Part shown: positions 31,316 to 62,080 of the stretch, one piece after another
Numbering within the stretch: the first letter of the stretch is position 1
Layout: the number at the start of each line of letters is the position of its first letter
Source: Heliocidaris erythrogramma
Taxonomy: Eukaryota; Echinodermata; Echinoidea; Camarodonta; Echinometridae
Assembly (NCBI GenBank): GCA_025617745.1
Contig: CM046857.1
Span: 22,349,081 to 22,413,080, forward strand
Direction of reading: 5' to 3'
Length of the DNA: 64,000 bases
Made by a program: the position numbers and the translations under genes
Notes under the pieces: generated by a model
The model's input: only the letters and a program-made list of their open reading frames with translations
Database searches by the model: none
Told to the model about the DNA's origin: nothing

Positions 31316-31469
31316 CAGGACACATCCATCTTGAGTTTATGCTTACAAAATATATTTAACAAGGAAAACTTTGAGCGACAGCTACAGTGCAAACATGTAC
31401 CATCTAACTTAAACTGGGAGGCATGTGTGAACTTAAATCATGGTGTTTCTTTGACTTATTGTGACTAAA

Positions 31470-31730
31470 GAGAAGACTGAATTATGGTAAAGGTAAAAAA
31501 CCATTTGTGAACTTTCTCAGTCTTTTTATGTTGGTTTTGAACTAAAACATATTAGTGATATCCCCCGGAAAAGATTGCTCTTCAAATGCCTTCATAATCA
31601 AAGTATAACAATGAGCTGAAGTGTTTGGACTTAACATTTATGCAACGTGAATGTGTAGTCCCATATACGCATTTCTGTGTGCAGTGCATACACGCTTTTC
31701 AGCTAGACAGAGTCAGTTTCTTATAATTTT
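31470..31730. repeat. Dispersed repeat, uninterrupted copy
   Basis: GGAAAAGATTGCTCTTCAAA, TTTGTGAACTTTCTC and CATTTCTGTGTGCAGTG recur in the same order at 44365-45870, where family A elements separate them. Confidence 0.55.
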
Positions 31731-32999: not shown

Positions 33000-33194
33000 T
33001 TGTGTATCATTATTGATGCCTTCTACATTAAAGTTTGAAGTTCATACTTCACATGGTTCTTGAGATATCGTGTTAACAAGGCTAACACCTGCAATTTCAG
33101 AAATTGACCTGTCACCTTTGAGAAAGCGGGACGGACGGACAGCCCGAAAACATAATGCCTCCGGCACCACCTTCGGTGGGCGGAGGCATACAAA
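33000..33194 (+). mobile_element. 3' end of a family A element
   Basis: TTCTTGAGATATCG, a short (GGAC)n, CCCGAAAACATAATGCCTCC, the hairpin and GGCGGAGGCATACAAA^T. No 5' end was found, so this copy is 5'-truncated. It lies just beyond the proposed UBC9 3' end. Confidence 0.65.
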
Positions 33195-35870: not shown

Positions 35871-38800
35871 CTGGAGAGTAAGTAAAGATGAAGATAAGTC
35901 ACAATATAGCTCAGAGGTCAAAATTGGGGTCACAACAGAAACTTGTTTCAATGATTGTTTAGATTTGTAATGAAAATGATATAGAATATTGAGAAATTAT
36001 AACATACCAAGTGCTGCAATGATTAAGACCATGTATGGATTGAAGTGTGTTTAAAAGATATCGTCAATAAAATTTAAAACTCTTATGTACAAAAATACTT
36101 GAAGTAGGCAAATGCACGGTAATTTGTGACCCGACGCCTCAAAACCTACAATAAGTCGCCAAAATTATTTTTTTTGTTTTATACATTTTCTGAAAATAGA
36201 GATTCTCAGCTTGCCAGTGGTATATCTTTTGCCTAGTTACTCAATGATACCACCTTTAAATATCACATTTAGAATCAGTATGTAACCAGCAATCAATAAC
36301 TCCTATTCAGAGAAAATGGCCATTTAAGTTCGGAACAAAAAGAGTGCTAAACCTTCGCTCTCCGTGTGCCCCCAAGTAAAACTGGGTATTCAAATGGCCA
36401 TAGCAACCGGTATGAATGGATTATCAGATTAGGTTGAATTTTGACACACTGCTCCAGGAGGACCTATTCATTACTCACTCCAAAAATCAATTTAATACCT
36501 TTGGAGGTAAAGTAGTAATTTGGCAATGAATGAAAGTATTACAAAAGCTCTCCAAACATTCATTAGCTCGACAGGTGAAAAAAAAAGAAGAGTCATTTTA
36601 AAGTAGATATTCAAAGAAAATCACAAATATGGCAATTAATGTATCACTAGAAACTGGGAAGCTTACAGATGGCAATCGTATAAGTTTTATGTCAACTGCG
36701 TATCTGGTGATTATAAAAACAACACAAATAAAAGCTCTTCTCAGCATCTGGAATATCCGAGGATTCGCCAGAAATATAGCGATGTTTTGATGTCGTCACA
36801 CTCGGGATCGATCCTGCTTAAGCAGACGACGTCCTATAATGAATGAACGTAATTGCAATGCAATTATTTATCAAATTATAAAGAGTTTGGTGTATTTAAA
36901 CATGACCTTATTTCACACCATTATAAAGGGAAAGTGAAACTGATTCTGATAGCTAAAACCGTTTGATTGTAAATACATAGGAGAAGCGTCAATGATCAAT
37001 GAAATAAACCCCACTTTCAAATTGAAAAGCCCTCCGAATAATAGCAGGATGGTATTCGTTCCCTCTTGAAACGCCGAACATGGCCCGGTGCAAGCAGCTG
37101 AAAATACAATGGCGTCTTATTTTGTTTACAAGTGACTGATTCCTTTATTTTTTTAACGCTGCATTTTTAATCAAAATAATACCATACACGAAGTTAAGAG
37201 TGAGGCAACAGACTAACATTAAGACTGACGCTAGTGAAGGAAGAGAAATAAGTGAAGAGGAGATGACAAAATAGGCTCTGAAAAATGTGTAAGATGTTAT
37301 GGGACATCGTCTGCTTAGACAGGACTGGTCCAGGGTGTGTCGTCACATATCTCAGCAGCGTTCGAGGAGCTCTTCAGCTGCTATATCGGGGGCTGTATTT
37401 TACCGTTTTATAATTGATAATAATCATTACTTCAAATGTTTCCAAGCGTTGAATTTGGATAACCTTGTTTAATTTATGCCATCTATGCAATAATAAGTAT
37501 TAAGCCAATATTTAAAATCATTAACGTTCTACTTTAAAATGCCCCCAAAACTTGAATTACGACTCACAAACTTCAGACATGATAGAATGATAATGAAACT
37601 ACCCATTTCTATCAAAAACAGAAAATCGACTGATCCAAGCAAATTTACTATTTTGGCCTGTTTGCTACGTTGTGGTCCGTGCAACTTATTGTAGGTTTTG
37701 AGGCGGCGGGTCACATTTGTCCTGTGCATTACTGACATCAGACTTTTTAGTATACTCCATGATTCTATCAAGGTCACAGCCCTACTTGACGTGGATAAGA
37801 CCACATAACGATGAAAAGGACACTTGTGGTGTTCACTTTTGTTTTATGTTTCTTTTTTTCCTGGTACTTAGTCTTAGTACTGATAGGACAGTTTAAAAGA
37901 CCAAATTCCTTGGACTTGCCCAAAATATCATGTGACTGTTCCTTTCATTTCACTCCCTTCTGCTGGGCAGATGAGGATATACAGAAGAAAAAGATGGAAA
38001 ACAATTGTCGGTAAGCATAATAAAATAACACTACTTACGAGTATATTGTGTAGGCTTCTGCCTGGGCTGGGTCATTGATGTTAGGATCATTTAGTAAGTC
38101 CTGGATGCCAAGCAAAATCTGAAGAAATGGACAGAAAAGATACATAATAACAATGGCAAGAGAATACATATTAATCAAGGTAGAATCATCCATGATCCTC
38201 AAACTAAATAAATATACATGACTGTACGACAGTTGTCTATAAATTTATATTCAACTAGAAATGTTCATTGCCGCGCAATGCGAATGTATCCCCCGGCAGC
38301 GATTCGAAGGAGGGACAAAGAACCTCCCCCCTCCCCTCATTCAAACAAAAGAATGGAGTAGAGATTGCCGCCAGTGGCCTGGACTATTGTCAATATTTGG
38401 AGCAGCATCACCAAAACAATGTGTGTAGATTAGAGTATAATGCATCTCTATAGAAAATTCGAAAGAAATCTGTCAAGAAATGTGACCTCAGAGCGCACGC
38501 AAGATATCCACTAAAATATGACCTTTGACCCTATGAAAAAAGGAACACTGGGGACAGCACCACCAAAACCTGTACAGGTCTAGAGTAATCTATGATGGAC
38601 CTCCATACAAAATCTGAAAGAAATCAGTCAACAAATGTGTCCTCCAGAATGCATGCAACCAAAATATGACATTTGACCCTATAACAAGCGGAGCACTGTG
38701 GGCAGCATCAGCAAACACTAAAGATGTGTAGATTTCACTAAGACACACCTCCATATAAAATTTGAAAGAAATCCGTCAAGAAAGGTGGAAGTTAGAGCGC

Positions 38801-41800
38801 ACAAAAGAGATATGACCTTTGACCCTATAAAGGACGGAACAATGAGGGCAGCATCACCAAAAAGTAAAGATGTGTAGATTATACCAAGTTACATCTCCAT
38901 ACAAAATTTGAAAGAAATCCATCACGAAATGTGGCCTGCAGAGTGCACTCATGCCATCCTCCAAAGTATGACCTTTGACCCTATAAAAGACGGGACACTG
39001 GTGGCAGCATCACCAAAAACTATAGGTTTTTAGATTACACCAAGAGACACCTTCATGCAAAATTTGAACGAAATCTGTCAAATGCAGAAGTAAAAATGCA
39101 AGAAATGGAGAAATGACCTTTGACCCTATAAAGGCCGGAACAATGAGGGCAGCATCACCAAAAAGTAAAGATGTGTAGATTATACCAAGTTACATCTCCA
39201 TGGAAAATTTGAAAGAATCCATTAAGAAATGTGGCCTACAGAGTGCACTCACACCATTCTCCAAAGTATGGCCTTTGACCCTATAAAAGATGGGACACTG
39301 GTGGCAGCATCACCAAAAACTAGAAGTTTTTAGATTACACCAAGAGACACCTTCATGCAAAATTTGAATGAAATCCGTTGAGAAATGTGACCGAGAAATG
39401 TGACCGCCAGAGCACACACAAGAGTGCACACTAAGCCTGAGTCATATTGAATATTTCATAATCCGGGATTCGACGGCTTTGATTCGATCGAATACCGGTG
39501 CATCGATTAATGATGGGCGGTGAAAACAGAGTTGCACACAGTTGCACGCAGTGCATGCACCATGCACCGGTGACCGGTCCGCTGGCATATGTATGGGCTC
39601 TCGCTGCTCGACATTAACGATAGCCCGCTAGTCAATGGCTAGTAAAAATCACAGCGGACGAGCCAAAATCTTAAGTTTCTATTCCGTATGGCTAGCCAAA
39701 ATATCACTCTAGTGTCGCACGAAGCGATGCTCGTTGTCGACACACCCGACAATGATTCAAATTCAAAGAATTAATAATCTTCCTTTTTCTTTGGAGAGCT
39801 GAATGGAACACGTTTGTTCGATGCAAAAAAAAAAAACAATACGAAATAAACTTTTCGTCGCTCATGACTCGTCCTTCGCGAGCGAATTAGCCAAAGTTAG
39901 CCAACAGTTTGAACTTTGAAGTCGCCTTCACGTTCTCTGCTAGTATATATGCTGTACGTTACGGAGTTTCTTTTTTTATTTGCTTTTTTCATGGTGGCTA
40001 CGGTAGTCAAAAATCTGGCGGACTACAAATCGATGCACCGGATTTGCCAAAACAAATTCGGGATTCGATGTCTTCGATCGAACACCGGCTAACCATTTGA
40101 TTCGACTCAGGCTTAGTACACACAAGACATTTATTAAAATATGACCTTTGACCCTATAAAAGACGGAACACTGGAGGCAGCATCACCAAAATCTATAGGT
40201 TTCTAGATTATACCAAGAGACACCTTCATGCAAAATTGAACAAAATCCGTTGAGAAATGTGAACGCTAGAGTGCACACAAACTATCCCCAAAAATATGGC
40301 CTTTTACCCTATAAAAGACGGCACACTGAGAGCAGCATCACCAGAAATTATAGGTGTCTACATTTTACCAAGATACACCTCCATACAAAGTTTGAAAGAA
40401 ATCCATCGAGAATGTGACCACTAGAGGCTCTAGCGCACACAAGAATGTGAAGCGGCTGAACGCTGCTGAATCCAAAGTATCCTGCGGGGGATACAATTAG
40501 CAATAATCTGTAATACCCCTTCAGGTATGATATTATGGGCTTCTTTGAGATACACTACCCAACCTTTTAGCAAAATTTCATATTTTTCATCATGCTACAG
40601 CCAAGTTTGGGGGTGGGGTGTTGGGGGGGGGGGTTGTCTGTAGTCAGTATACTATATATGAAACATGAACTTCAAATTTTGATGCTATAAAGAGATATCG
40701 CAAGTTGAAATACACTCCCAGTAAACAAAGTGACCTGTGGGAGACCAGTCAAAGCACCCGAATGAGCAAGCATAGAATAAGGGGCCGCATGGAACCGAAC
40801 ACGGTGTTGAGTTCTGCGTGAGAAGGTTCTATGCTTTCCTTCATTTTCTTCATAATCACAGAAGAATGCATGATTTGAATAAAATTGTGTACAGCTCCTT
40901 TTGAGATCTTATACAAGTTATAAAGAATATATAATATATTATATATATAATATATAATATATCACATTGAAATCAATTTCAGATTTAGATAAATGTCACA
41001 ATTTTGTATGGCCATCATGGTTTCTATAAAGCATTATATCAATTGTAATCAGACTTATCAGAGTAGAGTTTACCAATATTACTCGTTTTGTAGGCTTGTG
41101 CTTTTAGTACATTTTTGTAAGAAGTTTAACTGGAATTTTTCACAGTTCTTAAAGGGAGCGACAAGTCGCAATCTATGGGCGCTTTTACAGTTGGCTGCTC
41201 CTTTCTCTGGATCAAAGTTCAAAGCAACTTCAATTTATCGTGCGCAGCTAATAAAAGTTCGCACATTGACCCAAATTTGAGTAAACTAGATCGCGCGTTC
41301 TTTATTCCAGTATTTGAATCTCATTGGTCGGTTGCGTATGGAGGGATTCGAGTTAACGATCGCGCGAGGAATCCGGCAATAACATTCCTTCGGTAGCGCA
41401 CGATTGGACCTGATTGTATCCAAATTTCCCGGAGTCGGGCCAACTGGTCAGGCCCATGGATTAAGACTTGCCACTCCCTTTAAAGGGTTTACTCACTTTC
41501 ATTGGATACTGTATATGACACGGTAAAACTACAGCATTTTTTTTCTTCTCATGTGCATAGCAAGCGGCATGACGAGAAAATTAAACTATCTGCGCGTAAC
41601 AAAGACCCCTAAACATACTCGCTTATACCCCAGCCACACCAACAAGACCGTCAAGTACACCAGACTGACAACAGACTGAACAAAAAATTACATTATCCCC
41701 CAATGGCCCAAAATCAATCAGTTTAGAGACGATTTGGAGTTGGTCTGGCAGTGTAACCGAGGTACAGGTATAATCTGTGTGTTATAAGATACAACTAGAA

Positions 41801-44800
41801 ATAACACTGAAGATGATGATTAATACCCCCGCCCCGTGACAACAGCCTTTCTTGACTTTTGGTCGAAAACTGAGGAAGTAGTTCGATCCGCAAGATTTTT
41901 CCCTGATTTACTGCCATAGATATGCTGTTTCCATGGCAACGCAGCTTCCGACACATCAAAAAAATATGTTGTACACATCTTCCCAGTAAGACCAATGTGT
42001 GTACCAAATTTCATGACTTTCGGTCAAAAACAGAGGAAGTAGTTCGATCCGCAAGGTGTTTCCTTGATTTTCTGCCATAAATATGCCGTTACCATGGCAA
42101 CGCAGATTCCGACTCATCCGAAAAATATGTCTTGCACATCTTCCCACCAAGACCAATGTGTGTACCAGATTTCATGACTTTCGGTCAAAAACTGAGGAAG
42201 TAGTTCGATCCGCAAGGTGTTTCCTTGATTTTCTGCCATAAATATGCCGTTACCATGGCAACGCAGATTCCGACTCATCCGAAAAATATGTCTTGCACAT
42301 CTTCCCACCAAGACCAATGTGTGTACCAAATTTCATGACTTTCGGTCAAAAACTGAGGAAGTAGTTCGATCCGCAAGATTTGCAACGGACCGACCGACCG
42401 ACCGACCGACCGCCCAACCATCGACTGATTCCTATATACCCCCTTCAAGCTTCGTTTGGCGGGGGTATAAAATGTGAGGTGCACTGTGCACCACCCTTGT
42501 GTAATTTTATTTTGTCACTGCATTCTTTTTTGAGGCGGTGTATCTCATCACATGGTGCCAGTGCTTTATGGAGAATGCCTCCGGGAAACCATAAATAATC
42601 TAAAACCTAACACTTTACACAGTAGGCACAATGGGCCATGCACTTCTCTGCATCTAGTCTACATGCTACATACGTTTTTGCCATGCCCGCAGGAGTTATT
42701 GGACATGTCCAAGAGAAGTAGCGTGTGGCCACGATTTTTTGATGAACGCAGGTGACATGCCCAGTTGTTGTACTCCTTGCACAGATCGCAATGGCTTCTT
42801 GTGAACATCACACAAGCTGCAGAGCTCTCACAGAGGCATGTGGTGCCATACACAGTTGTACAGAGCAGAACCACAACGCAGGACAGTTGCATAACACCTG
42901 AAAAGGGCTTGTACATGTATGTTCACCTCCTGGGTCCTTGCCGGTAGGAGGGAGGCATGTTTGAGAGGAAGGAGTAAAGACAACCAAAAGGGACCGCAAG
43001 AAGGACATATGAATCACAGGAATAAGCCAGTTCGGGGTTAGCGCATGGTACAAATGACCCCAAATATCCACAGATATTTTAGACATGTAGGGTCCCTTTA
43101 TGTGCACTCCAGAAAAATAACTCTGGGAGTGATAGAGGTGCCTCATGAATAGCTTTTGTTTCCCCCTTTAAAAAGAATACTTCCACCTGGATATCATGGA
43201 ATGCACCATTAGTGCATGATTGTATAACGATTACATGACATTCATGAGCACATATCGAATATTAGTGTCAGTGGGTTTTAGAATTTGGTACAGATGACCT
43301 TTATCTGCTCATGCTCAGATTGCATCTCCGAAGTGGCTTATTGGCCTACAACCCGACCACAGCTGCAGACACGCATGTGTAAAAGAGACGCAGGGTGAGT
43401 TGTGACCATAGCATTACCTGTTTAATTGTAACAGCAGGTCTCCAGTCTTTATCCTCATCCAGCAGAGAGAGACACACCGTGCCTGACGGGTATACATTCG
43501 GATGGAACAAAGGGGGGTCAAATTTACCTGCAAGTGGATTAAAAAAAACATAATAGATTTCTTCAGCATCAAGTTAAGTTCAAGATATGTATGCATAAAA
43601 ACTGACTTAACCCTAATAGAGCCGGGTTATTTAGACCCATCTCACAGCAGGGGGGGGGGGGCTGATTCCGCCCCCCCCTAAGATCTCGGCCGTCCACCGC
43701 GCATTCGCAACGAAAATCGGCACACACGTCACCGACCACGTAATCTACAAAACTGTATAGTCAATTTCTCCGAAAAATGTCACAACTAATTAATTATGCT
43801 AATTTATGCATAAAATTAATGGTTTGCTCTAATTAATTAAATAAAGCCCCAAAACTTTTTTGTATACAGACTCTTTGTCAGATTCTGATCAAATAAACCA
43901 AAAAAAAATTCGGTAAAATCCTTTTTTTCTTATGTATTTTATTGTTTTTTTAATTTCTTATTTCTTTGTTTTTCGACTTTTTGTTTTTTATTGTTTTTTC
44001 GATGGAATTCGTCGGCGACACTATTTTAATCATAAACAACATAAAATTAATTGTTTTTAAATAGTAAAAGTAAAAATAATGAAACATTCATGAATTTTAG
44101 CTGGAAACACAATTTGCATTGGATTTGTACACGAAATCACGTTTTTGAGCAATTTTGGGTCTGACATGCACTTACGAAATGTTGCGTAACTCTGGAACCA
44201 CACGCGCGGACATCACAAATTTGGTCTCAAAAGTTGCGCAAGACTTGAAAGAAAAAAGTAGTGAAGCGGCGTGGTGACTGCTTTTCGCGACGCGAACATA
44301 TTACGCGAAACGTCGAGGGGGGGGGGGCGGAATCCGCCCCCCCCCCGGTCCTATTAGGGTTAAAGGAGAAGGTTGAGTTAAGGTAAAGATAAACCCAATT
44401 TGTGACCTTTCTCTTTCTTTTTATCATAATTAATTTGGAGGAAATTTATTGTAGAAATGTCCCCTGAAAAGGATTGCTCCTCAAATGCCCTCATATTCGA
44501 AATATACAAAAAAACTAGATGAATGGAATTTATGCCTCCGCCATCACCAGATTGGAAATGTATGGCATACATGTACACTCTAAAAAGGATTGGTCCAACA
44601 AAATTACAAATCTTTTCACTTAAAAAGCACAGGAGACAGAAAATTTATTTCATTTCATTTTCATCCCGTACAAATAAAAAACTTACCATTGATAACTTAC
44701 AATCATCAAATACACCAAGGAAATAGATATTTTATAGCAAATAGATATTTTATAGCAAATAGATCGCTGTCCCCTTGAAATTTCTAAAATAGGTAGGCCT

Positions 44801-47800
44801 AGACTCCATACATCACGAATCATTTTTATGTATATAATGACCTCTATGACCTTTGAACTTTGACCTTGAGACACTAAAATCTAATCAGTTCATTGTCCCT
44901 CACATATGCATACATGGGCCAAGTTAGAGGTTGATCCGTCAAATAGTCTGAAGTTATTGCGAGAACGAACCATTTTTATGTACATTACGATTTACGACGC
45001 CTCTGACCTTTGACCTTTGACCTTGAGACCCTAAAATCTAATCAGTTCATCATCCCTCCCATATGCAAACATGGGCCAGGTTAGAAGCTGATCTGTCAGT
45101 TCTTCATTTATCGTGAGAACTAACCATTTTATGTATATAATTACCTCTGTGACCTGTGACCTTTGACCTTTGACCTTGAGACCCCAAAATCTAATCAGTT
45201 CATCGTCCCTCCCATATGAATACGGCCAAGTTAGAAGCTGATCCGTCAAACAGTTCTGAAGTTATTGCGAGAACGAACCATTTTTATGTACATAATTACC
45301 GCTGTGACCTTTGAACTTTGACCTTGAGACCCCAAAATCTAATCAGTTCATCGTCCCTCCCATATGCATACATGGGCCAAGTTACAACTGATCCAAAAAG
45401 CAGTTTTGAAGTTATCGCGAAAACGAAAAGGGGATGGACGGACGGACGACCCGAAAACATAATGCCTCCTGCTACCACCTACGGTGGGCGGAGGCATAAA
45501 AATAGCGAAGTGTTTTGGACGAAGCATTCATGCCCCACTTTGACCTTGAACTTTGACCTTGAGACACTAAAATCTAATCAGTTCATTGTCCCTCACATAT
45601 GCATACATGGGCCAAGTTAGAGGTTGATCCGTCAAATAGTCTGAAGTTACATAATTACCGCTGTGACCTTCGAACTTTGACCTTGAGACCCCAAAATCTA
45701 ATCAGTTCATCGTCCCTCCCATATGCATACATGGGCCAAGTTACAAACTGATCCAAAAAGCAGTTTTGAAGTTATCGCGAAAACGAAAAGGGGACGGACG
45801 GACGGACGACCCGAAAAGCATTCATGCACCACTTTTGTGTAGTCTCATATACACATTTTTGTGTGCAGTGTATGTGACTTGCAGCAATATTGAGTCAACT
45901 GTTTATCATTCTAAAAATAATGTTATCTCCTGACCATAACTCTTTACAGTCAAGATATACAAATTGACTTATTTCACAAGTTTCAATTACGTAAGATGAC
46001 AAACTTGAATTGCCTCGAGGCCAACCAAATGTGCAACCTCCTTCAAATGGGGCGTTCTTCAAATCTTTCATATGAAACCAAAATGAGAAATTATGTCCAT
46101 CACTAATGTTTTTCCATTACAAGTACTCAACATTCTCTATAGAAACAATGTGACATGGTTTTGCAAATTTGCTTTTTATTGTAGTAAGCCACGTGCACAT
46201 AGATATAATTTAAAAAGGACTTTAATTAATTGATCACAGGTAACATATAGTATACAGACTTTCACTAAGAGAACTTGTTACAAACTTTGAACAAAGTTTG
46301 CAATATCCACGATAGCATAGAAGAACCAAATGGTTTGTATAGGCCTACATGTACAAGTAATCTGTCAGAGCATGTGTTTGCTGCCTGTAATACATGTAAG
46401 GCCGTTGTTGCCAGTGATAATATATGGCTGCGATGGACATATTTAACAGGCAGTTGCCTTGAGCTGACTAGAAGTGGTGTCGTGGTCCTATACGTCACCG
46501 TACTGTGGATCATACACTTTGGCAAGACATTAATCTACATTTGCCACTCTCCACCCAGGTGTAGTAAATGTAGGAACTTGTGCCTTGAATGCGTTCAGCA
46601 CCTTAGGGCAGCTGGGCTAAACCCAGAGTAACAAGATGAATGCGACTGTGTCTCCTATATGCCTCCGCCTAAATTCAGTTGATGGCTCAAACTCTTCTAG
46701 AAATATTTGATAACGAGGCTAAAAACCAGTAATTTCATGTAATTTTATGTAAATTGACCTCTGTGACCTCTGACCTTTGACCTACTTACCCCAAAATCTA
46801 ATCAGTTCATCTTTCTATGGGTATGCATACTGGTACCAAGTTTGAAGTTCTCACATCAGATAGTTCTTGAGATATCGCGGTAACGGTGCTAAAAACCAGT
46901 AATTCCATGTAATTTCATGTAAATTGACCTCTGTGACCTCTGACCTTTGACCTACTTACCCCAAAATCTAATCAGTTCATCTTTCTATGGGGATACATAC
47001 TGGTACCAAGTTTGAAGTTCTCACCTCAGATAGTTCGAGATACCGCGGTAACGGTGCTAAAAACCAGTAATTCCATGTAATTTCATGTAAATTGACCTCT
47101 GTGACCTCTGAACTTTGACCTACCTACCCCAAAATCTAATCAGTTCATCTTTCTATGGGGATACATACTGGTACCAAGTTTGAAGTTCTCACCTCAAACA
47201 GTTCTTGAGATATCGCGGTAACGGTGCTAAAAACCAAGAATTTCATGTAATTTCATGTAAATTGACCTCTGACCTTTGACCTCCTTACCCCAAAATCTAA
47301 TCAGTTCATTTTTCTATGGGGATACATACTGGTACCAAGTTTGAAGTTCTCACCTCAGATAGTTCTTGAGATATCGTGGTAACGGTGCTAAAAACCAAGA
47401 ATTTTTATGTAATTTCATGTAAATTGACCTCTGTGACCTCTGACCTTTGACCTACTTACCCCAAAATCTAATCAGTTCATCTTCGTATAGGGAAACATAC
47501 TAGTACCAAGTTTGAAGTTCTTACCTCAAATGATTCTTCAGATATCGTGGTAACGGTGCTAAAAACCAAGAATTTTTATGTAATTTCATGTAAATTGACC
47601 TCTGTGACCTCTGACCTTTGACCTACTTACCCCAAAATCTAATCAGTTCATCTTCGTACGGGGATACATACTAGTACCAAGTTTGAGGTTCCTACCTCAA
47701 ATGATTCTTCAGATATCGCGGTAACGAGAAGTGGGACGGACGGACGGACGGACAACCCGAAAACATAATGCCTCCGGCACCCACCTTCGGTGGGCGGAGG

Positions 47801-50800
47801 CATAAAAATACTCCTTTGTAGGCACTTTGAGCATCCCCTGGGATGGATATGTGCGCAATATAAATGTAGCTATTATCATTATCATTATCATTATCATAAC
47901 AAATGTAGATGCTTTAGCTCATAATAAAATGGCGCAGTGTGCTTACTGAGTCTCTAATTTGTTCCAGCAACTGCAAAATATCAGGAATTATCAATACCAC
48001 TTTATAAATAAAAACTAAAATTCATGTTTGAGGGCTAAATTGGACTTGTCTCATTTTACGCATTGTACAAACCTTATGTTTTGCTGTTGGTTGTTGTTAT
48101 GGGAGTTTTTGCACTGGGCTCTATTCAAAGTTTTGGGGTTAAATATTTCCAGCCCAATCTTTTTTAGTCTTCAAAAGTGTATGAGCTATATAGAAAGGGT
48201 TAACATTTGCTTTTATAAAATATGATCTTCATTAACAGAAAACAGAATCCAGCCCCTTTTCGTGTGGTAAGTATCTTCACCTACATGTACTTACAAACAA
48301 ATGGCATGATAAACAATAATGCCAAGGGTTTAACCACATTGACATGTTACATAAATGAACAGCCCTTCACAATTTTAGTACCGTAATCTAAGTGCACGCG
48401 CATTTTTGTGGTGGACGTGCTACTTGCTCAACATGTGAAATCACACTGGAGTGCGCATCATGGTGCGTACACAGTGACCAGTGACACAAGGCCATTTGTA
48501 CTTGGTACATACATGTATGAACTTTATCTGCACCTGTGAAAATTGTAATGGTACGAACTTGCTTGTTCCATTCAGCTTTATCAAATATACCCGTTCAATG
48601 ATCAATTTCACCTTGAAGAACAGCATGAACGGTGATGACTCTTTGAACTAACCCAAGACATCCATACATCACTTTGTAATTGATCTTTCCTTAATGAATG
48701 TCTGCGTACATTACCACATACTAGTATACAGACAGGATGTGAGACTTCTAAATGTATCAATGGGTAGTACATGGCACAGAGCCAAGCACTAGAAATAGTC
48801 AATGTCATTCTTACTTCACTGGGTAATTATTAGAAACTATATTAGGTCTATTTAATGTGAGCATGAGAATCCTTTAATGGGTTACGTGGGGATTTTGGAA
48901 AATATATCTTGACATACCAATTAGTAGTAAAACAAGATAAGTAGCGAAGGAAATTTCTTTTTCTTAATTAAGATTTCAGGAATCCCAACCTTCTATGGAA
49001 TTTTTAAAATAGCTTTTAAGAAATTACCAAGATATTTTGAGAATTCCACTTCCAGACTGGATATGTGAAAGTTGGATAAAGTTAATTATAGTATCTCCAT
49101 CTTAATCTTATGGAATAGCATTGTCATCATCCATTCAGATGAACAAGAGTATGCAATCATGGAGTTGATTTTAACCGATATGCCATCTTTCAAGCGACAG
49201 TGGCCTGCTCCAAAAACAGATGAAAAGATTTTCCGCTAGTCCTACTAGAACAAGCATATAATTATATCGTTCAGCTAATATTCAGATCCTCAGACAAAGA
49301 CTTTCTGTGGCCTTTGCCAGCTTGTATCCCAACCCGTAAGTTCGAGCCCATCTCTGCTGTGGAACTAACTTCAACTGGGCCCCGTTTCATAAAACTTATC
49401 GATAAAAAGTTACGATAATTGTTATAAGCTACTGCAATCATTGCATTTGATTGGCTGTGAGCAATTTTGTTATAGAAGTGTAGCAGTTGTCATTGACAAC
49501 CAGGTAAAATGAAACAGGACCCATTCAAGCAGACAAGAGATTCTGGGCTCATGCTGATGTACTTTCATCCTTTCCTTACGTCCCTGCTGGATGTTTCCCA
49601 TCTCCGTTGCATCACTACAACCCTATTTTCCTTTACCTACATGCACACATATCTATTACTCAATTCCTTTTCTTCCCCAATTCCTTTTCTTCCCTCCCTC
49701 TCTCTTCTCTATTAACCTGTATTATTAACCCTATCAGACATCTGAGCAGGGCAATTTTAACTCTTTCTCGCCCAATTTTGACCGGTCAATTTTTTTCCTG
49801 TATTGCCCGCTCAGAAAAGTCAATGGCAAAATGCGTGTTAAACTAGCGGGCAATAACGTACAGCCAACATCCGAGTATTTGTTATTTTCATCAACATTTT
49901 TGATACGCCAAATTCCCGCGGAGCTCGCTCGCTGCATTACCGGTACTACATTGGTTTGTACGTAGAACTAGCAAACGATCGTGGGCGTACTCATGATTCA
50001 GCAAATAATGCCACGACGAAGATATAAATAGAACCATTAATCAAATTGAATTACCATACCCATTGTCCTTACATAATGCAGTATCCTGAAAGTTGGCATG
50101 CGCCAATAGAACAGTAGAACACACGCACCAGCCACAATTGCTTTATGGTCAATTTTTTGATGCAAAACAAGTTCTTGACTTCAGCCCTGGACCAAACACC
50201 ACACCTAACCCTGAACTTTATCTACAACCTAATCCAGGCATGATAGTGGCATACCAAAAAAAAATCTACGTTTCCGGGGTCCAGGGGCGGAGCCCCTGGT
50301 GGGGGTCAGGGGGCAAAGCCCCTTGGAGCCCCTGCACTTTTGCTCTTTCATGAGCACATTTAAAGGTGTCTAGAAGGCCTTTTTGGAAATTTTTATATAA
50401 CTGTAAAGGAAAATCACTGGGTAGTTTCCAACTTACATTAGGTTGGATGGACCGATGTACGTACATGTACGATGTAAATCCACATGATGATAGAGCAAGT
50501 ACAAAACAGCTGAGCCGCGTGCCTGGGCAGGCGGCAGCCGCTGACCTGGGCTGAATATATAGCGTCGCGAGTAAACAAACGCATGCTGTTCCGTTTATGT
50601 TACGTTGCTATCGATAAAATTCGGCCAAAATAAAATCTACCCCAGTCACTACCTTGCTTCACGTACACGTGTGCACCACACGTATGCAATGCTACACAAA
50701 ACGAATCACTTGCAGGCGAGCCAGCACAAAAAAACAACGCTTACATACAGGTACAACCGACATACGAATCGCCCCAAATCTCATATCAACCACAAATTAT

Positions 50801-53800
50801 TCGACCACAACAAAATCTTTTTTTTTAAACAGGATCGTTTATTACAATCGGGGAAAAATGCCCAAAAATCGAGATCATTGTCAGGAAAAGAAAAAAAATC
50901 GGAATTCCGATCTAAATCGGAAGAATATCATGCCTGAACCTAATCGCAATGCAAGGCCTAGCTCTCGATACCTTCAGACGAAATCAAGCCTGAAACCAAA
51001 GTTGGAACACAGCCAAAAAACCTCCCAAGTCACAGATTTAATCCAAACAAAGGGTTTACAATTACGCTAGAGCGGCGTTATAATTTGGTCCCGTCTGAAC
51101 CTAGCACCTTATTTTAGGAGAATAAATGCCTTGTAACAGTAGAGGATCAGAGTGCTACCCTTTCCCTTCTGCACACAGAAATGACTCATATTTCTCAGAA
51201 TTTTTGCGTGTTAATGACAGTTCAAAGACAAACAGTGGGGCACTGCAGACTGCTGGGTAGAATTTATTCTACTTCAGAAGAACGACCTTCTTTGTGACCT
51301 TCCAACATTAATCATAGCTGCGGGGAGCTATACAGCTCGTTCACACTGTAGGGTTTGTCCCCAGTTCCAATGTGCTAGCGTAAACTGCTGGACTTATATC
51401 TTTCCAGTATTACATGACATGCAGAGTGCATATAGCACTTATATTCATCTCTAATTTCATGCATATTGACACTCTTATGTCCTTTGACCTTTGACCTCCT
51501 AAACCCAAACTCCAAGCACTTTGTCTCACTATTCATAACTTTCATATTCCTTGTCCGATCTCCTTCTCTGACCTTTCTGCTTCCTTTCAGAGCAACTTGC
51601 GATTACTGTTGGATTTCCGTTTAATCATACTCACATTTGGGAGGCGATGTTGGGTAATCGTCCTTGAAAATCATTCTCAGCTTATACAGGCCGTCTTCCC
51701 AAGGAGTCTGTGGTGCAACAAATAGAAAATCATTTGAGGTATTTAGAGCACATGATGCATTAGCCTGTTTTAGTTCAGTTCACACTTGATAAAATATCTT
51801 GAAATTGAACCTCTACTCTCAAAATTTGACGATAGAACATGCATTAGAATGATTTGAACAGAACCGCATACAAATTGCTGTGAATCATCATCACTTAATC
51901 TCATTCATCTTTTTACATTTCTTCTTTAGAAATGCACATTTTGTAGCTTGTGCATCAAATAAATTTTCATGTACTTCTTCAGCCTCAATGTTTATGAAAT
52001 TAAAACAATTCATCAGTTGGCAAACATGAAGAAGTTATAATGCACAACAGAACTAGGCCCTCTTGCATCTAGACCTGCATTTAAATGCAAGAGGCCCCTA
52101 GTCTATCAAACATTGTTCCATATAGGAGGACACCAGTATCCTAAGCTTGTAATGAACCCATGCCATAAGAAGTCTTGTGTGAAGCCATGGATTACAGTTA
52201 TTTCCTTTCTCATGCTCTTTCACACCAGCTACAAAATATCCTTGTGTGGCTGGCAGAAGCGCGTTAACACACACACATGCCATAAAGCAAATTTCTGGTA
52301 ACCTGTTTCTAAGGTTTTGATTGCTCTATGCATGCCCCACCATTTTTTAATCATGACAGGGATTTCTCCCTTTATCGACTGATAAAAAAGTGAAAATGGA
52401 TGGTAATTACCTAATTTTAGTAGTTTCGGATCAAATAAAGCACACATTGTTTTAATGTTACGGTTATTTTAGTGCTAATGACCTTCTGCCAGCCACTATA
52501 CAATGTACAGTCTTTAAAATTTCAAATACTGTGGGAATATCAAAGAATTACATTACAAAAATATATTTGAGGTGATCACCTCTTGGTATCATTTTCTTTG
52601 GAAGTAGCAACTCCATGTATCCTTAACTTCACCACACTAAAAGCCACATCTTTCTAGCTATTTATGTATGGAAGTAGAATGTTCATCTTGAAAGTCGTTA
52701 TCTGCATGAGACATCCTGTTACACTGCATTCCCATTTAGCACCAACATCCTTCTTCTTCAAAATGAAGCTACATATATAGAAAACCTATAATACTGAAAG
52801 TGATATACTTACACTGTTCTTTCCTGGAATTGCTGTTGGTTGAAGGATGCATGCATGCATGCATGCATGTGTGTGCGGGGGGCAGGAGAAGAACACAAAA
52901 AAAAGAAGATTAATCATTGGTGAATGGTGCATAAATATCAAATATCAAATAAAATTATACTCATTTTTCCAACATTTGTCTTCACATCTCATTAAGAAAG
53001 GCCTGTCTTTTTTTCTGTGTTTCTGGAAATGATTGTTTTGTTGTTTTCTGTTTTTGTTCGTTGTTGTTCTTTTGTATAGAAAGAACTTAGAAAAAAGTCA
53101 ATCCTGAGGCCAAAAGTTTGATTTCTTAACACAACATGATATCCTTTTCTAACCCATTTGTGATATCACATTATTTCATCTAACATGCTGTCTAAAAAGA
53201 GGTATACCTGATAGATTACCATAAAGCATGGTCAGACCTGAGCTCTGCCATAGTTTCAGACCACAAGTCATGTGACTCACTTACAATTGTTCTAACCCAG
53301 TAGTTCTTAATCGGGGGTTCATGGCTCCCAAGCTGGTCATTTTGGGTCTCCTTTCAGGATAACAACTGTCTTTTTCAGATTCATTTCACTGTATTGACTG
53401 TGTATTGGCAGACATTTTTTTCAATTAAAGCCATTACGTATTTCAGTTTGGGTGCTCAGATTAAAGTAGTTATCCAAAGAAAATCACAAATATGGCAATT
53501 AATGTATCACTAGAAACTGGGAAGCTTACAGATGGCAATCGTATAAGTTTTATGTCAACTGTGTATCTGATGATTATAAAAACAACATAAATAAAAGCTC
53601 TTCTCAGCATCTGGAATATCCGAGGAATCGCCAGAAATATAGCGATGTTTTGATGTCGTCACACTAGGGACCAATCCTGCTTAAGCAGACGACGTCCTAT
53701 AATGAATGAACGTAATTGCAATGCAATTATTTATCAAATTATAAAGAGTTTGGTATATTTAAACATGATCTTATTTCACACCATTCTAAAAGGGAAAGTG

Positions 53801-56800
53801 AAACTGATTCTGATAACTAAAACCGTTTGATTGTAAATACACAGGAGAAGGGTCAATGATCAATGAAATAAACCCCACTTTCAAATTGAAAAGCCCTCCG
53901 AATAATAGCACGGATGGTATTCGTTCCCTCTTGAAACGCCGAACATGCCCCGGTGCAAGCAGCTGAAAATACAATGGCGTCTTATTTTGTTTATAAGTGA
54001 CCGATTCCTTTATTTTTTTAACGCTGCATTTTTCATCAAAATAATACCATACACGAAGTTAAGAGTGAGGCAACAGACTAACATTAAGACTGACGCTAGT
54101 CAAGTAAGAGAAATACATGTAAGTGAAGAGGAAATGACAAAACAGGCACTGAAAAATGTGTAAGATGGTATGGGACATCGTCTGCTTAGACAGGACTGGT
54201 CCCTGGTGTGTCGTCACACATCTCAGCAGCGTTCGAGGAGCTCTTCAGCTGCTATATCGGGGGCTGTATTTTACTGTTTTATAATTGATAATAATCATTA
54301 CTTCAAATGTTTCCAAGCGTTGAATTGGATAACCTTGTTTAATATATGCCATCTATGCAATAATAAGTATTAAGCCAATATTTATTTTGATGGAATTTTC
54401 TTGTAATGTGATCTTTAATGACCAAGAGCACTGACAGGGTCATGGGACCATAAATGGTAAGAACCACTGCTTATTCATTGAGGTTTAATTTAACCTCAAA
54501 TGCTGAATTCTGTGGCCCATATCCTGAACTCCGGTTTAACTTAAACTCCAGTCTAAGTTAAACCAGAGTTTAATTAAAACTGAATTAAGCTGCAAGTCCA
54601 GTCTAAATTTCTGTACAAAGTTAAACCACACTAGACCGGAGTTTAAGTTAAACCAGAGTTCAGCATGTGATTTTCTAAAACTCTGGTTTAAAGGGCAGGT
54701 TTAGATTGGGTTGTAACCACATTTATACCATGGTTTAAGCTACATGTAAACCGGAGTTCAGAATACGGGCCTGTGATTTTTGAGCTTTGCAATAGACCGC
54801 TTCGGTAATGTATGCAAATTTTATACACACCTTTCAAAAAAAAGGTTGTTTTTGACAACCTGAAAGCTTGTTGGAGGCTTTCCAGACATAGCAACAAATA
54901 ATGTATGCAAACTGGATTCCAAGCATTGAGGCTCATTTATAAAAAGCAGGTTAATGGAATAGCTCATCACTAGGTGCTCAGCGAATATATGTGCATAAAT
55001 ACATACATTACAGAAGCGGTCTATTGGAGGCATTTATCAACAAATAAATGTACCTCAAGGGTACACATTTAATTTTAACCATTAACAGAAATGATCACAA
55101 GTGAAAAGAGCTGTTACTTACCACACTCCCAGTTCATGAGATTTAATGTACCATCAGCATTCTTGGTTGGCTTTGCTACGAACCCCTGTAGGTATAAACA
55201 AAGAAAAGTAGAAAACACACAATATGATCATTATCCCATCCATGTTATCATTACATATCATCTGGGCAATTTCAGAAGGTTCAAGAAACAAGAGCCCCAG
55301 GGGCACGGCGCTCACCTGAGGTGGATCAATTCACATCTGGTGCATGTTATCTCTTGCACATGAACAACTTTCATTCTTCATCTATAGAGGTATCTCTATA
55401 CACAATACCAAGTCTGAGCTTCCTACCAAGTTCGGTTAAATTCCAATCATGGGTTTTGGAGAAGAAGCTGAAAATGTAAAAAGTTTATGGATGGCGGACA
55501 ACTTGCCCCACACCCCCCCCCCCCCCCCCCTCCAGTATGTTACCCCCACAGACCCCCTATAGGGCCACCCAGAAAAAATTCATGAACATTTTTCGTCTAT
55601 AGAGGTATCTCCATACACAATACCAAGTCTGAGCTATTCCTGGTTCTGGAGAAGATGTTTGAAATTTACACAGCTTTTACAATTGGGGGCCCTCCCCCTG
55701 GGCCCCCTGGGGGCCACATGTACCATTTTAGCAACTTTGGATCCCCTACCCCTAAGGATGATTCCTACCAAGTTTGGTTGAATTCCGATCATGTGTTTTG
55801 GAGAAGAAGATCAGAATGTACATTTTGCCTGGCAGCGCCCCCCCCCCCTCCAGTATGTTACCCCAAAAGGCCCCTATAGGGCACTCAGAGAAATTTCATG
55901 AACAACATTCATTCTTCATCTATAGAGGCATCTCCATACACAATACCAAGTCTTAGCTATGCCTGGTTCTGGAGAAGAAGATGTTTGAAATTTACATAGC
56001 TTCTACAATTGGGGGCCTTCCCCCTGGCCCCCCCCCCCGGGGCCACAGGTACCATTTTAGCAACTTTGGGTCCCCTACCCTAAGGATGATTCCTACCAAG
56101 TTTGGTCGAATTCCGATCATGTGTTTTGGAGAAGAAGATCAGAATGTACATTTTGCCTGGCAGCGCCCCCCCCCCCCCCCCTCCAGTATGTTACCCCCAC
56201 AGGGCCCCTATAGGGCCACTCAGAGAAATTTCATGAACAACATTCATTCTTCATCTATAGAGGTATCTCCATACACAATACCAAGTCTGAGCTATGCCTG
56301 GTTCTGGAGAAGAAGATGTTTGAAATTTACATAGCTTTTACAATTGGGGGCCCTCCCCCTGGGCCCCCCTGGGGGCCACATGTACCATTTTAGCAACATT
56401 GGGTCCCCTACCCCTAAGGATGATTCCTACCAAGTTTGGTTGAATTCCGATCATGGGTTTTGGAGAAGAAGATGAAAATGTAAAAAGTTAACGGACGACG
56501 CACGACGCACGACGCACGTCTGACGACGGACGACGGACGACGGACAAATTTCCATCGCAATAGCTCACTCGAGCCTTAGGCTCAGGTGAGCTAAAAACTT
56601 AAATAGCTCTCTGGCTCCATTTCAAAGAATAAGAATGTTCTGAATTCTTTAAGGTCAAGATCATGAATGTACGATGTGGTAGGTACATCTTCTATAAACA
56701 ATGCATTCACAAATGTTTCGCAACATTAAAAAAATAATCTCAAAACTTTCTTTTTCCTTCACTATTAACATTTTCTAAAACTTTTACTTCTTTCTTTCAA

Positions 56801-57408: not shown

Positions 57409-58334
57409 TTTGCTGATTTATCTATGTATATTTCTAAATCTCCCTCTCTCTGAATCCGATATATCTGATGAAGGAAACACATGAATATTTAGCGTTATAA
57501 ACTGAGTTATTAGTTATACAATCCATCATTTACTAGAAGCTAGATCTGTGCGTAGCGTAAGAGCTGTTAACTGGTTGAACAAAATTTTATATGGGCACCA
57601 ATAACAACTTGAGAATACATGTATTTCCCCCCCCCCCCCCCCCCCCCCCCCCCTCTGACCCATTCCTACGCAGCATGTGGGGTTGTGCCAATTTTGGTGG
57701 CGGTAGACCTGTAAGGTTGAAGAGGAAAGAACACCAAAATAATTTGCAAAATTCTGAGAAAATATTTCCTTTTACATTTTTTAAGATGAGAAAATGTCCG
57801 ATTTCCAGACAATTCCTTCAATGGGAATTTAGTGAAATTTTTGGGTTGTTTTTGGCTGGCGATCCTTTGAAGGCTTTCACACGAGCTTGATAATGCATTT
57901 GACTTGAAATTGAACAAGAATTTCTTTAACATTCCTCAAATGCCTAAACTTATATTATTCCTGATATTCTAAATAGTAAGTGTGCAAAAGATCGCATCAA
58001 AATTAGAGCAAGAACAATGATATTTTCACAAAAAAAAGTGGCCGTGTCATTTTGACATTAAACTTATGATGGTGCTGATGTCTGCGAACTCGATCATTTT
58101 ACATGCAATTCTGGATTTCTGACATGAAAGACAACATTTCGAGGCTTGTGTCTTTGTGAATAATTTACTGAAATAAGACCTTTTTTCAATATTTTGACTT
58201 GACATTCGGCATGAATATCTTTCAATATAAAATTATAATGAAGACGTAAAGTTTGTGCTCATTGCGTCTTTTGAATCGCACATTTACACGTGTGCGGAGA
58301 CTTGGGCACTCCAGTCTAGCCATATTAATTAATA

Positions 58335-58500
58335 CAGTGGAAACGCACTATAACGAGGACCTTGGGACCATGAAAATTATCTTGTTATATTCAAGAATCT
58401 TTTTAGAGTCTATATATCATAGGGGTTAAAAAAAAAAGAAAATAAGGACCTAGCTGGCACCAGCAAAATTACCTTGTTATAACTTAAGTTATATCAGGAA
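58335..58500. repeat. Pogo/Tigger-like end fragment
   Basis: ACAGTGGAAACGCACTATAA, then CGAGGACCTTGGGACC, then a TTATCTTGTTATA motif repeated as TTACCTTGTTATAAC. The second terminal repeat was not found. Confidence 0.4.
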
Positions 58501-59141
58501 TCTATGAAAACAAACGTAGACAGTGAATTTTTAAAGTAGACGGTCAAAAGGAGTAATTTTTTAATGACGTACATGTATCTGCTTAAATATCAGGTTTTCA
58601 TTTCGCACCGAGGCCAGGTAATCCCTTTGCAGCAAACGTAAACAAAGAAAATTGGCCTCCTAAATGGGAGACTGTCTCCTAAATTATAGGCTATCTAAGT
58701 ATCTTTGTAGGCTACATAAAAAAATGTTGACAAAAGTCTCTGACATTGTGACAATGGAGACAGTATCCCAAAGAAAAAGGATACCGTCTCCAATACGGCC
58801 GTGCGCCTCTACAGACTGTGCGGAGTGAACGTGAAGTTGAACCAACCAGTACTGGTAGATCTACACGATGCCAAATCTTTTTTTCCCCTTTTCCACGATC
58901 TGAAAATGAAATTCTATGATGGCGAAGCCTCTTTCAGTTATTGAGTTAAAACAAAATCATAAAAAAACTTCCTTTGGCTTGCCTAGGCCTAGGCCTATAT
59001 AAAAAAAAAAAAAAAAAGATCTTAGACTTAAGTTAAGTATTAAATATAATAGGCCCTAAAGCTTAACATTTTAAGTTACATTTTCATCGTCAGTTCGTCA
59101 CCAACACTTACCTTAAAACAAGTTACACTTACCGTACACTA

Positions 59142-59300
59142 GTCTCCAGTGATCTGAACAGAAAAAAAAAAAAATAATAATAAAACCAACTTTACCACCA
59201 AGACAAGTCCAAGAAAAATATGAAATTTGAAAAATCAAAAATACTCACCACAAAATACAAGGCTAAATGCCCGAAATAGAGCTAGGACTCTTGTCTCGGT
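59142..59300 (-). other. Possible untranslated first exon of UBC9
   Basis: A donor-like GGTAAGTGTAA stands on the minus strand at about 59141-59131, and a second GGTAAGTGT about 30 bases further on. UBC9 genes in other animals often begin with a non-coding exon. Position and strand fit, but no TATA box, initiator or CpG-rich promoter was recognised, so this is only a candidate. Confidence 0.2.
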
Positions 59301-59749
59301 GAATGGAATTTGTCAAATCAACCACATACATCAACTAGAAACTTCACTGTCTTCAGTCATCTACTTCATTGACAACAGATCACGACCAAAATGCTGTGAA
59401 GTAAGTGCGTGTGTGTACTTTTCATTCAACGAGGATCTTCGAATCATGTGTATTGTATATTGCGCCTCATTCATAACGTACGTAAATTCACGTTGATAAT
59501 CGCGATTACCGAGCTGGATGCATGGGCAATTTCGTGTACAAAAAATGAACGTGAAATCAGCAAAGGTCACGTGATATGAATGAACCGTGCCACGGATGAC
59601 TGAGAGAGGGCGCAAATAAATTGAGTTTGTTTTTAGTTTGAGCAAGGAGGTACATGTATAGCTAGCATCCCCAAGTACCTCCTCCTTGGTTTGAGAATTA
59701 TTTTACTATAAGCAATGATGTAGTTTTAAAAATCAGTTAGACAAGCTGC

Positions 59750-59780
<31 letters not shown>

Positions 59781-60062
59781 TCATCCATTGCCCATATTAT
59801 ATTCTCTTCATTCAGTTTCCACCATCGTTAAACTGCAGTAATTCTACCTCCTCTATAGATATTCAGAAAACCGCGTACAAATAATAGTATAATGTCGCAA
59901 AAGCAAAGTTAAGAAAATGTTCATGTTAATACAAGGGAGGCAAATATTTTGAAACTAAACAATTTCTAAGTGCCTGAAAATATCAAGTGTTTATACAAAT
60001 CAAATGCAACTTCTACCCCCCCCCCCCTACAGTGCCTCAGTTTATATGACCGTTTATATCAG

Positions 60063-60190
60063 GAGCGGATCCAGGATTTTGCAAAACGGGGGGGGGGGGG
60101 GGGGGACCCCACACAAATACAGGGCTGTTAACTTTGGGAAACTGCTTGTATTTTTGTCTTCTCGCCAGCCCTCCAAAAGTCGCTCAGTTG

Positions 60191-60227
<37 letters not shown>

Positions 60228-60390
60228 TGGGGTCCAGTCACCCTCCATAATTCTCTGACAAGCAACACCCCCCCCAAAAAAAAAAATGGTAAAGGGGGGG
60301 GGGGCACAATGTATAGGCTCCTTTTCTTTTAAAAGGGGGGGGGGGGGGGGGGGCACAGGCCGGGATCCCTCCCTAAATCTGCCACTAGTT
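60063..60390. repeat. MITE-like block with G-runs
   Basis: AGGAGCGGATCCAGGATTT at the left and, inward from the right, ACTAGTGGCAGATTTAGG. Between them are G-runs of 10-40 bases, one of the longest at 60192-60224. The open frames across it encode only poly-Gly. Confidence 0.5.
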
Positions 60391-61293
60391 TATATCACCT
60401 GTATCATATATGTCCGTCATAATCAAAAAATTATATATTCTATCTGTGTTAAAGGGGACCATTCACCAAAAAGTTTGCCCCGCGGTATAATTATTTCCAT
60501 TTTTTTTAAATAACCAAATTTTAAAAATCTTCTGAATAAGTTACATGTAGGATATACTCGGCAGTCCATCATATCATTTTCATTCACATTCAAGTTATCT
60601 GAAAGGAAAAACAAGTTTTCACTGGGTCTAAATTAGCTAGCCCGGGGCACTTAAAAAAAAAAAAATGCTTGGTGTATTTGAGATAATTCACGTTAAATTG
60701 GGTTTTGCAGGGGTACGTCCCCCCCCCCCCCCCCCCCCTTGGATCCGCGACTGATCTTGAAAGTACAGGTCGCAGTTATAGTTGTGAATCAAAATTTTCT
60801 CCCCCTCTCTGCGCATCTCTGAAAATAATTTACCAAGCCACCCAAGAAAGGCTATATAATTATACAGACCACCCTTTCATTTTATCACGTTAAAGTAATA
60901 ACAACAAACACACTTTCATTATTTTTAAAAATTCATTTTCTATTTATATTTCATCAACAGTTGCTGAATAAATGACACAAATTTGATAATAATATACTGC
61001 ATGTGTAAATCCAAAACATAAAGGATTGGTAGTCTTCAAGATTTCAACCCAAAGCTGGATTTAAGCTAGGTTGAGTTAAATAAAAAATTACACCAAGTTT
61101 CAGCTTGCCTTACAGCTTAAACATGAAGCTACTCTGTTTTACATAGTGAGCTTCCTGAACAGAACTAATAGAATACAGGCCAATGGGTTGAGACATGAAT
61201 TTCTATTTGTAAATTAAGAAAGGATTTCAAAACATAACGAAAATCAAATGTGACACTATAATAGCCATACAATGACCCCACATCATAATACTA

Positions 61294-62080
61294 ACTAGAT
61301 GAATCTCCGACCACGCGCGGTCGGAATTTATGCCTCCGCCATCACTAGATTGGCAATGTATGGCATACATGTACACTTTAAAAAGGATTGGTCCATCAAA
61401 ATTACAAATCTTTTCACTTCAAAAGCACAGGAGACAGAAAATTTATTTCATTTTATTTTCAAATAAAAAACTTAATTACCATTGATGACTTACAATCATC
61501 AAATACACCAAGGAAATAGATATTTTATAGCAAATAGACCACTGTCCCCTTGAAATTTCTAAAATAGGTAGGCCTGGACTCCATACATCACGAACCATTT
61601 TTATGTATATAATGACCTCTATGACCTTTGACCTTGAGATCCCCTAAAATCTAATCAGTTCATCGTCCCTCACATATATATGCATACGTGGGCCGAGTTA
61701 GAGGTTGATCTGTCAAACAACTGAAGTTATTGCAAGAACGAACCATTTTTATGTACATAATTACCTCTGTGACCTTTGACCTTTGACCTTGAGACCCAAA
61801 AATCTAATCAGTTCATCGTCCCTCCCATATGCATACATGGGCCAAGTTACAAACTGATCCGCCAAACGGTTTTGAAGTTATCGCGAGAACGAACCATTTT
61901 TATGTATATAATGACCTCTATGACCTTTGACCTTTGACCTTGAGACCCCAAAATCTAATCAGTTCATCGTCCCTCCCATATATGCATACATGGGCCAAGT
62001 TACAAACTGATCCGCCAAACGGTTTTGAAGTTATCGCGAGAACGAAAAGGGGACGGACGGACGGACGGACGACCCGAAAA
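61294..62080 (+). mobile_element. Tandem-repeat element, family A, 3'-truncated, with the fullest 5' end
   Basis: It starts ACTAGATGAATC, then a 20-bp palindrome TCCGACCACGCGCGGTCGGA (61306-61325), then TTTATGCCTCCGCC. Three units follow, then (GGAC)n and GACCCGAAAAC. The terminal hairpin and GGCGGAGGCATA are missing. The palindrome is deleted in the copy at 44514, where the flanks of the palindrome join directly. Confidence 0.75.

Follow-up and report, generated by a model that had tools for sequence, protein, structure and literature searches.

Four tandem-repeat element families of Heliocidaris erythrogramma are very probably non-autonomous Helentrons (HINEs)

Families A–D, four families of tandem-repeat elements in a 64,000-nt stretch of the Heliocidaris erythrogramma genome (C5:22349081-22413080; hereafter, the window), are very probably HINEs, i.e. 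non-autonomous Helentrons of the Helitron2 type, with the minus strand of the window as their sense strand. The 61294-type A, B and D elements fit the HINE plan. Elements of 46632-type A belong with family A through their subterminal inverted repeat (subTIR) and tandem units and lack the 3′ palindrome, while family C, also without a 3′ palindrome, is placed among the HINEs provisionally. The case for this assignment rests on the whole architecture together with the copy number in the 1.06 Gb assembly searched (26 contigs), and not on the start motif alone.

The original prediction for this DNA had proposed non-autonomous Helitron relatives forming one mechanistic class, and both proposals fit the evidence. 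It had also suspected a poorly described terminal code; most of that code, however, has already been published as DINE-1/HINE/Cg_HINE anatomy, as the accessible parts of the literature attest. The families are new representatives of the described HINE class, with sequences that differ from those of known HINEs, and a known transposon class accounts for the striking repeat pattern once the strand reading is corrected. Only modest details may be new, namely the T5...CTWGT termini, the A bias and the hairpin loop. In the accessible text of the open-licence literature we found no statement of such a code, and we claim no priority for it. If the refined termini hold, the end signature becomes usable for searching and the target choice of Helentrons versus canonical Helitrons becomes testable.

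Organization of the elements in the window

The following copies and related sequences were delimited:

44514..45502, minus strand: family A, 44514-type; 3′ subTIR 44530-44542, tandem units, GTCC tract, 5′ subTIR/hairpin 45487-45499 and T5 at the 5′ end; 3′ palindrome missing
45535..45817, minus strand: further truncated family A piece adjoining the 44514 copy (BLAST)
46631..47808, minus strand: family A, 46632-type; 3′ end CTTGT, 3′ subTIR 46658-46669, six tandem units, GTCC tract, 5′ subTIR 47793-47804; palindrome absent
61294..62089, minus strand: family A, 44514-type; 3′ palindrome 61306-61325, 3′ subTIR 61328-61340; 5′ subTIR/hairpin lost
33031..33194, minus strand: family A, truncated copy (33000); 5′ hairpin with subTIR 33179-33190, short internal remnant; 3′ end absent
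38254..40498 (5′ limit approximate), minus strand: family B; 3′ palindrome 38266-38280, 3′ subTIR 38285-38295, tandem units, 5′ subTIR 40485-40495; interrupted by another repeat at ~39434-40115
17572..18344, minus strand: family B; 3′ palindrome 17584-17598, 3′ subTIR 17604-17614; 5′ module missing
41794..42472, minus strand: family C; 3′ subTIR 41823-41833, 161 bp units, GGTC tract 42387-42410, 5′ subTIR 42458-42468; clear 3′ palindrome absent
55288..56597, minus strand: family D; 3′ palindrome 55294-55304 (by eye), 3′ subTIR 55310-55320, 335 bp units, GTC-rich tract, 5′ subTIR/hairpin 56581-56591, T5
31467..31643, minus strand: paralogous empty site of the 44514 insertion, ~73 % identical

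Tandem-unit elements beginning with ACTAGA or AACAAGA on the plus strand had been proposed at eight positions. We confirmed those at 44514, 46631 and 61294 (A), 38254 and 17572 (B), 41794 (C) and 55288 (D); the copy at 33000, which had been listed under A, is truncated and has neither of these ends. The shared plan is real, but it is not present in every copy, as B 17571 lacks the opposite end and A 61294 lacks the subTIR/hairpin on the (A)n side. All eight copies (window 17571-61294) lie on the minus strand, whereas family A ends are balanced genome-wide (1,671 + 1,543).

Some other repeats and genes in the window were also recorded. The segment interrupting the B copy (39434-40115) is MITE-like, with ~12 bp terminal inverted repeats (TAAGCCTGAGTC...GACTCAGGCTTA), and at 8969-13135 tandem repeats of 145-198 bp, built around a hairpin-like CGCGCTTTGCGCG core, form a long array that apparently falls outside families A–D. 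Single-frame genes with a Nucleotid_trans (PF03407) match lie at window 22949-23764 and at L010:6237-7103; the two may be local paralogs.

Shared anatomy and termini

Read on the minus strand, the elements follow one order. A T-run is followed by an 11-13 bp subTIR, a complementary fold-back stretch and, in A, C and D, a microsatellite. The tandem units come next, then the 3′ subTIR and the 3′ end, with a palindrome between these two in 61294-type A, B and D. The original prediction had taken the opposite strand as sense, so that the 5′ T-run appeared there as a 3′ (A)n and the 3′ CTAGT as a 5′ ACTAGA. The run comprises five T in A and D and four in C; none is clear in B, for which the predicted (A)n did not stand, and neither an (A)n nor a GGAC/GTC-type microsatellite was found in that family. 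The sub-terminal motif and its complement were borne out as perfect inverted repeats of 12-13 bp in A and 11 bp in each of B, C and D, with no mismatch in the copies tested (44514, 46632, 38254, 41794 and 55287); the pairs are subterminal and asymmetric. The GGAC/GACC/GACGAC tract described for A, C and D is likewise present; it lies in the 5′ module and is of the GTCC, GTCG or GTC type on the minus strand. Central tandem repeats occur in all four families.

The 3′ ends read ATTCATCTAGT, ATTCATCTTGT, TTTCTAGT or CTCTTGT, and family A comprises two subfamilies that have one subTIR in common and differ in their 3′ ends. These ends had been described as lacking both the 5′ TC and the 3′ CTRR of canonical Helitrons. 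The first part holds: no 5′ TC of Helitron1 is present, and the A copies fetched start TTTTTATGCC (the search itself required five T). The second holds for some of the groups only: 44514-type A, B and C end in CTAG on the minus strand, which matches CTRR, and the CTTG of 46632-type A and D does not. A palindrome predicted for A, B and D was seen at the 3′ end of 61294-type A, B and D, but it is missing in the 44514 copy and in 46632-type A, nor was it found in C. A hairpin at the 10-12 nt upstream of the 3′ end that is expected of Helitron1 was seen in 61294-type A (~11-12 nt).

We compared folding energies with those of dinucleotide shuffles (200 per end). The 5′ hairpin formed by the subTIR and its inverted copy lay far below the shuffles in 44514 (z -6.1), 46632 (z -5.9) and D (z -5.3; 0/200 each), while those of B and C were weaker and not better than shuffles (44/200 and 25/200 as good). 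At the opposite terminus, 61294 folded better than its shuffles (3/200 as good) and 46632, B, C and D did not (121, 79, 186 and 99 of 200 as good, respectively); B and D carry short perfect 3′ palindromes although their folding energy is unremarkable. The 3′ palindrome of 44514-type A showed weak covariation, with two pairs changed on both sides among nine sequences (30/500 shuffles as high). The loop of the 5′ hairpin in 30 fetched A copies was GAA in 20 and GTA in seven, the search pattern having fixed G as the first loop base so that only the A in third place is free evidence; the three altered hairpins still start CACCGAAG. Mini-hairpins with a C(GNA)G triloop are very stable in DNA.

Copy number and terminal statistics

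The family A end (21 bases including five A on the plus strand) occurs 3,214 times genome-wide (1,671 + 1,543), and the reversed control pattern 0 times; the architecture is therefore not a product of chance. A pattern in which 12 free bases and then a non-A come after the 16-base A end returned 2,449 matches (control 0), and the same device applied to the family D end returned 1,535 (control 1). One of the five matches printed for the 16-base A end is without a run of five. A DNA search for copy number with a 91-base end, a method that passes over very common words, gave no match. The start motif combined with any inverted partner of at least 10 bp was rejected as a criterion because it is too weak: it was found at 9/47 and 5/26 ACWAGA sites against 171/1,410 and 97/780 random starts (together, 14/73 against 268/2,190).

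Loci L021-L050, the first 30 A ends listed, were fetched, and a 3′ end was recognized in 23 of them; L032, L034, L039, L045, L046, L047 and L049, with no recognized 3′ end, were dropped before the flanks were counted. Adding the 44514, 46632 and L017 copies and removing two duplicates (L028 and L029) gave 24 distinct complete A copies, a set that leaves out window copies 61294, C and D and that B and the truncated 33000 never entered. The G of CTWG was present in 24/24, the next T in 22/24 and the following T in 24/24. The base before the T-run was A in 14, T in four, G in three and C in three. Genome-wide, A precedes the run in 1,616/3,214 A ends compared with 31 % A in nearby DNA, a bias whose significance is only indicative as the copies are not independent. 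The run is exactly five T in 24 of the 30 fetched copies and is preceded by a further T in six, which suggests that A elements carry a fixed T-run, at least five T having been required by the search. Insertion at TT, a usual but not defining HINE feature, was not the rule among these A copies, an outcome that hinges on the assignment of the Ts to the element or to the host.

Empty sites

Two copies of family A had been said to have empty sites at A^T, and this was upheld for one of them. The joined flanks of 44514 match L001:50-190 (76 %), window 31467-31643 (73 %) and L011:9466-9620 (74 % identity), where the paralogous empty sites read GCTA^TTTC, GCTCA^TTG and GCTA^TTCC, respectively. All three place the insertion at A^T with no target duplication. 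To the right of the insertion, the filled site is richer in T than the paralogs. For 46632, a strict empty-site pattern gave 0 matches, and the sole spanning paralog (L037) reads CTACAAAG^TACC against CTACAAAGGAGTA|TACT at the filled site, a difference of five extra bases. This is not a clean A^T case, and a TA may stand on both sides of the insertion. At L040, an A element lies nested within a tandem unit of B. The filled site there reads CCTATA|TTGG, where most of the B units compared have CCTATAGTTTTTGG or a close variant, so that about four bases differ.

Insertion at A^T without duplication is accordingly firm at 44514 and otherwise, given the A bias above, a tendency and not the rule that had been proposed. 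Target duplications had been named as an observation that could refute the proposal; none is present at 44514 by any of the three paralogs, and 46632 and L040 are ambiguous.

Relatedness of the tandem units

The families had been called unrelated in sequence, which is correct for the C and D units by the shuffle test used. The units of 44514-type A and B, however, scored above 200/200 shuffles when compared, as did those of the two A types above every shuffle. Between 46632-type A and B, 83/200 shuffles were as high, and B versus D was marginal (5/200 as high). A common origin for all tandem units was considered and rejected, as only the 44514-type A/B pair and the two A types beat every shuffle.

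The motif TGACCTNTGACCY occurs 29 times in the window (0.01 expected by shuffles), at 17764-18226, 38519-40154, 45004-47624, 51485-51497 and 61622-61940; 28 of these occurrences fall inside A and B tandem units. It resembles the DR1 site of nuclear receptors, and the families may spread receptor-binding motifs.

Helitron Rep genes in the genome

An autonomous partner had been suggested as a target for searching, and candidates are plentiful: Helitron_like_N (PF14214) has at least 103 genomic matches, of which 94 are uninterrupted by a stop. The open frames span 100 to 4,199 aa, and 0/14 control genomes have a match. Upstream of the Rep match at C9:10877592, a frame (L051, C9:10872592-10877591) contains two Herpes_teg_N stretches, an OTU domain and DUF6570, to our knowledge an unusual domain set to accompany a Helitron Rep. 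The frame end IDHVYIRG...TYYSYHECIKILI may correspond to the end of an endonuclease. Helentrons with an endonuclease often also carry an OTU domain, according to the accessible parts of the literature.

These Rep genes are putative autonomous partners of families A–D; no autonomous element bearing the A–D ends turned up in the DNA read around them. A linkage through ends at L052 and L053 was tried and rejected. The first 1809-1818 bases of L053 recur at five other places, after which another repeat begins (~base 1813), and three others match L052 over its whole length, up to the first base.

The repeat that L053 enters from 1813 starts (C)TTAAA followed by AAGAAAATCACAAATATGGCAATTAATGTATCACTAGAAACTGG and recurs at window 15449, 36598 and 53477, near L011 7850 and in L034; with a common 5′ start and differing flanks, it is probably the 5′ end of a non-LTR retrotransposon. 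Many Rep matches lie within ~400 kb of contig starts (e.g. C2, C13 and C14) and some are evenly spaced (C4:56.40-56.42 Mb, C2:215-237 kb), so subtelomeric or tandem clustering is possible.

Proposed mechanism and alternative explanations

By analogy with the class, a Rep/helicase supplied by an autonomous Helentron would recognize the terminal hairpins and subTIRs and nick the CTWG-T end, one strand would be copied by rolling-circle replication, and the copied strand would be joined ahead of a host T, which would leave no target duplication. The tandem units would be passengers, expanding or shrinking within the element. We tentatively put forward, as a proposal that is rather less likely than its negation, that the Helentrons of this lineage share a fixed terminal code, 5′-T(4-5) plus C(GNA)G-triloop hairpin ... 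CTWGT-3′, with insertion ahead of a host T, preferably at A^T. Were this true, Helentrons would retain the A^T chemistry of canonical Helitrons and an end resembling their CTRR, the TT target given in published work would be a matter of assigning the element's own Ts, and Rep would recognize the hairpin loop, which is GAA in Fusarium Helitron2 as well, as a conserved element.

Several features are reminiscent of canonical Helitron1, and derivatives of it that acquired inverted repeats would explain the CTAG end and the hairpin ~11-12 nt before the 3′ end of 61294-type A, A^T at 44514 and the A before the element in 1,616/3,214 ends. Such an origin is nevertheless very improbable: the 5′ end is a T-run and not TC, 46632-type A and D end in CTTG, and HINE traits are seen in the subTIRs, the 5′ hairpin, the GTCC tract and the central repeats. 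The same traits bear on a mobile class that uses another enzyme and became HINE-like through convergence of the ends of several families. The autonomous partner is not linked to A–D, and the A bias and T-run depart in detail from HINE reports as far as these are accessible, but most of the anatomy matches HINEs and the genome is rich in Helitron Rep genes, which leaves this explanation very unlikely.

Two further readings can be given hardly any weight. Short inverted repeats and the want of coding capacity would suit MITEs of a cut-and-paste DNA transposon, a label that DINE-1 formerly bore in the accessible literature; however, the repeats here are subterminal and asymmetric, and 44514 inserted without a target duplication. 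The latter also speaks against retroposons with a poly(A) tail, to which the A-run at one end of the plus-strand reading would point, as do the inverted repeats at both ends and the constancy of the run (exactly five in 24/30 fetched copies, with at least five required by the search).

Comparison with known systems

Known systems are compared here as described in the accessible parts of the papers cited. Canonical Helitron1 resembles the present elements in A^T (44514), the CTAG 3′ end (three groups) and the near-3′ hairpin (61294-type A), but has a 5′ TC, absent here, whereas subTIRs and a 5′ hairpin are present here. FoHeli, the non-canonical Helitrons of Fusarium oxysporum (PMC5148889), share with the present elements asymmetric inverted repeats and a 5′ hairpin; in the FoHeli1/2 hairpins, as in those of family A, C and G enclose a GAA loop, and one FoHeli group ends CTCCTGT, near CTWGT. 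FoHeli1/2, however, end ATTTT and insert after TNAT, and central tandem arrays go unmentioned in the accessible parts of that paper.

The HINE plan itself comprises a 5′ subTIR, its inverted copy, a GTCY microsatellite, central repeats and a 3′ subTIR with a stem-loop, without target duplication (PMC7492417, PMC4067079, PMC2374699). DINE-1/HINE-Mo (PMC4067079, PMC2374699) share with A–D subTIRs of 13 bp or 12-15 bp, a fold-back repeat, a GTCY microsatellite, central repeats, a 3′ stem-loop and an unmodified target. They differ in their TT preference and variable T number, and their autonomous partners have been identified, while that of A–D is inferred. Cg_HINE of Crassostrea gigas (PMC7492417) prefers TT in T-rich DNA, whereas here T precedes the T-run in 4/24 copies and A in 14/24; two groups here are without a 3′ palindrome, and the sequences differ. 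Like A–D, Cg_HINE (PMC7492417) has an 11-12 bp subTIR, an inverted copy by the 5′ subTIR, a GTCC/GTCY microsatellite, a satellite-like array, a 3′ subTIR, a 3′ palindrome and no target duplication, and several unrelated repeat arrays occur within one genome.
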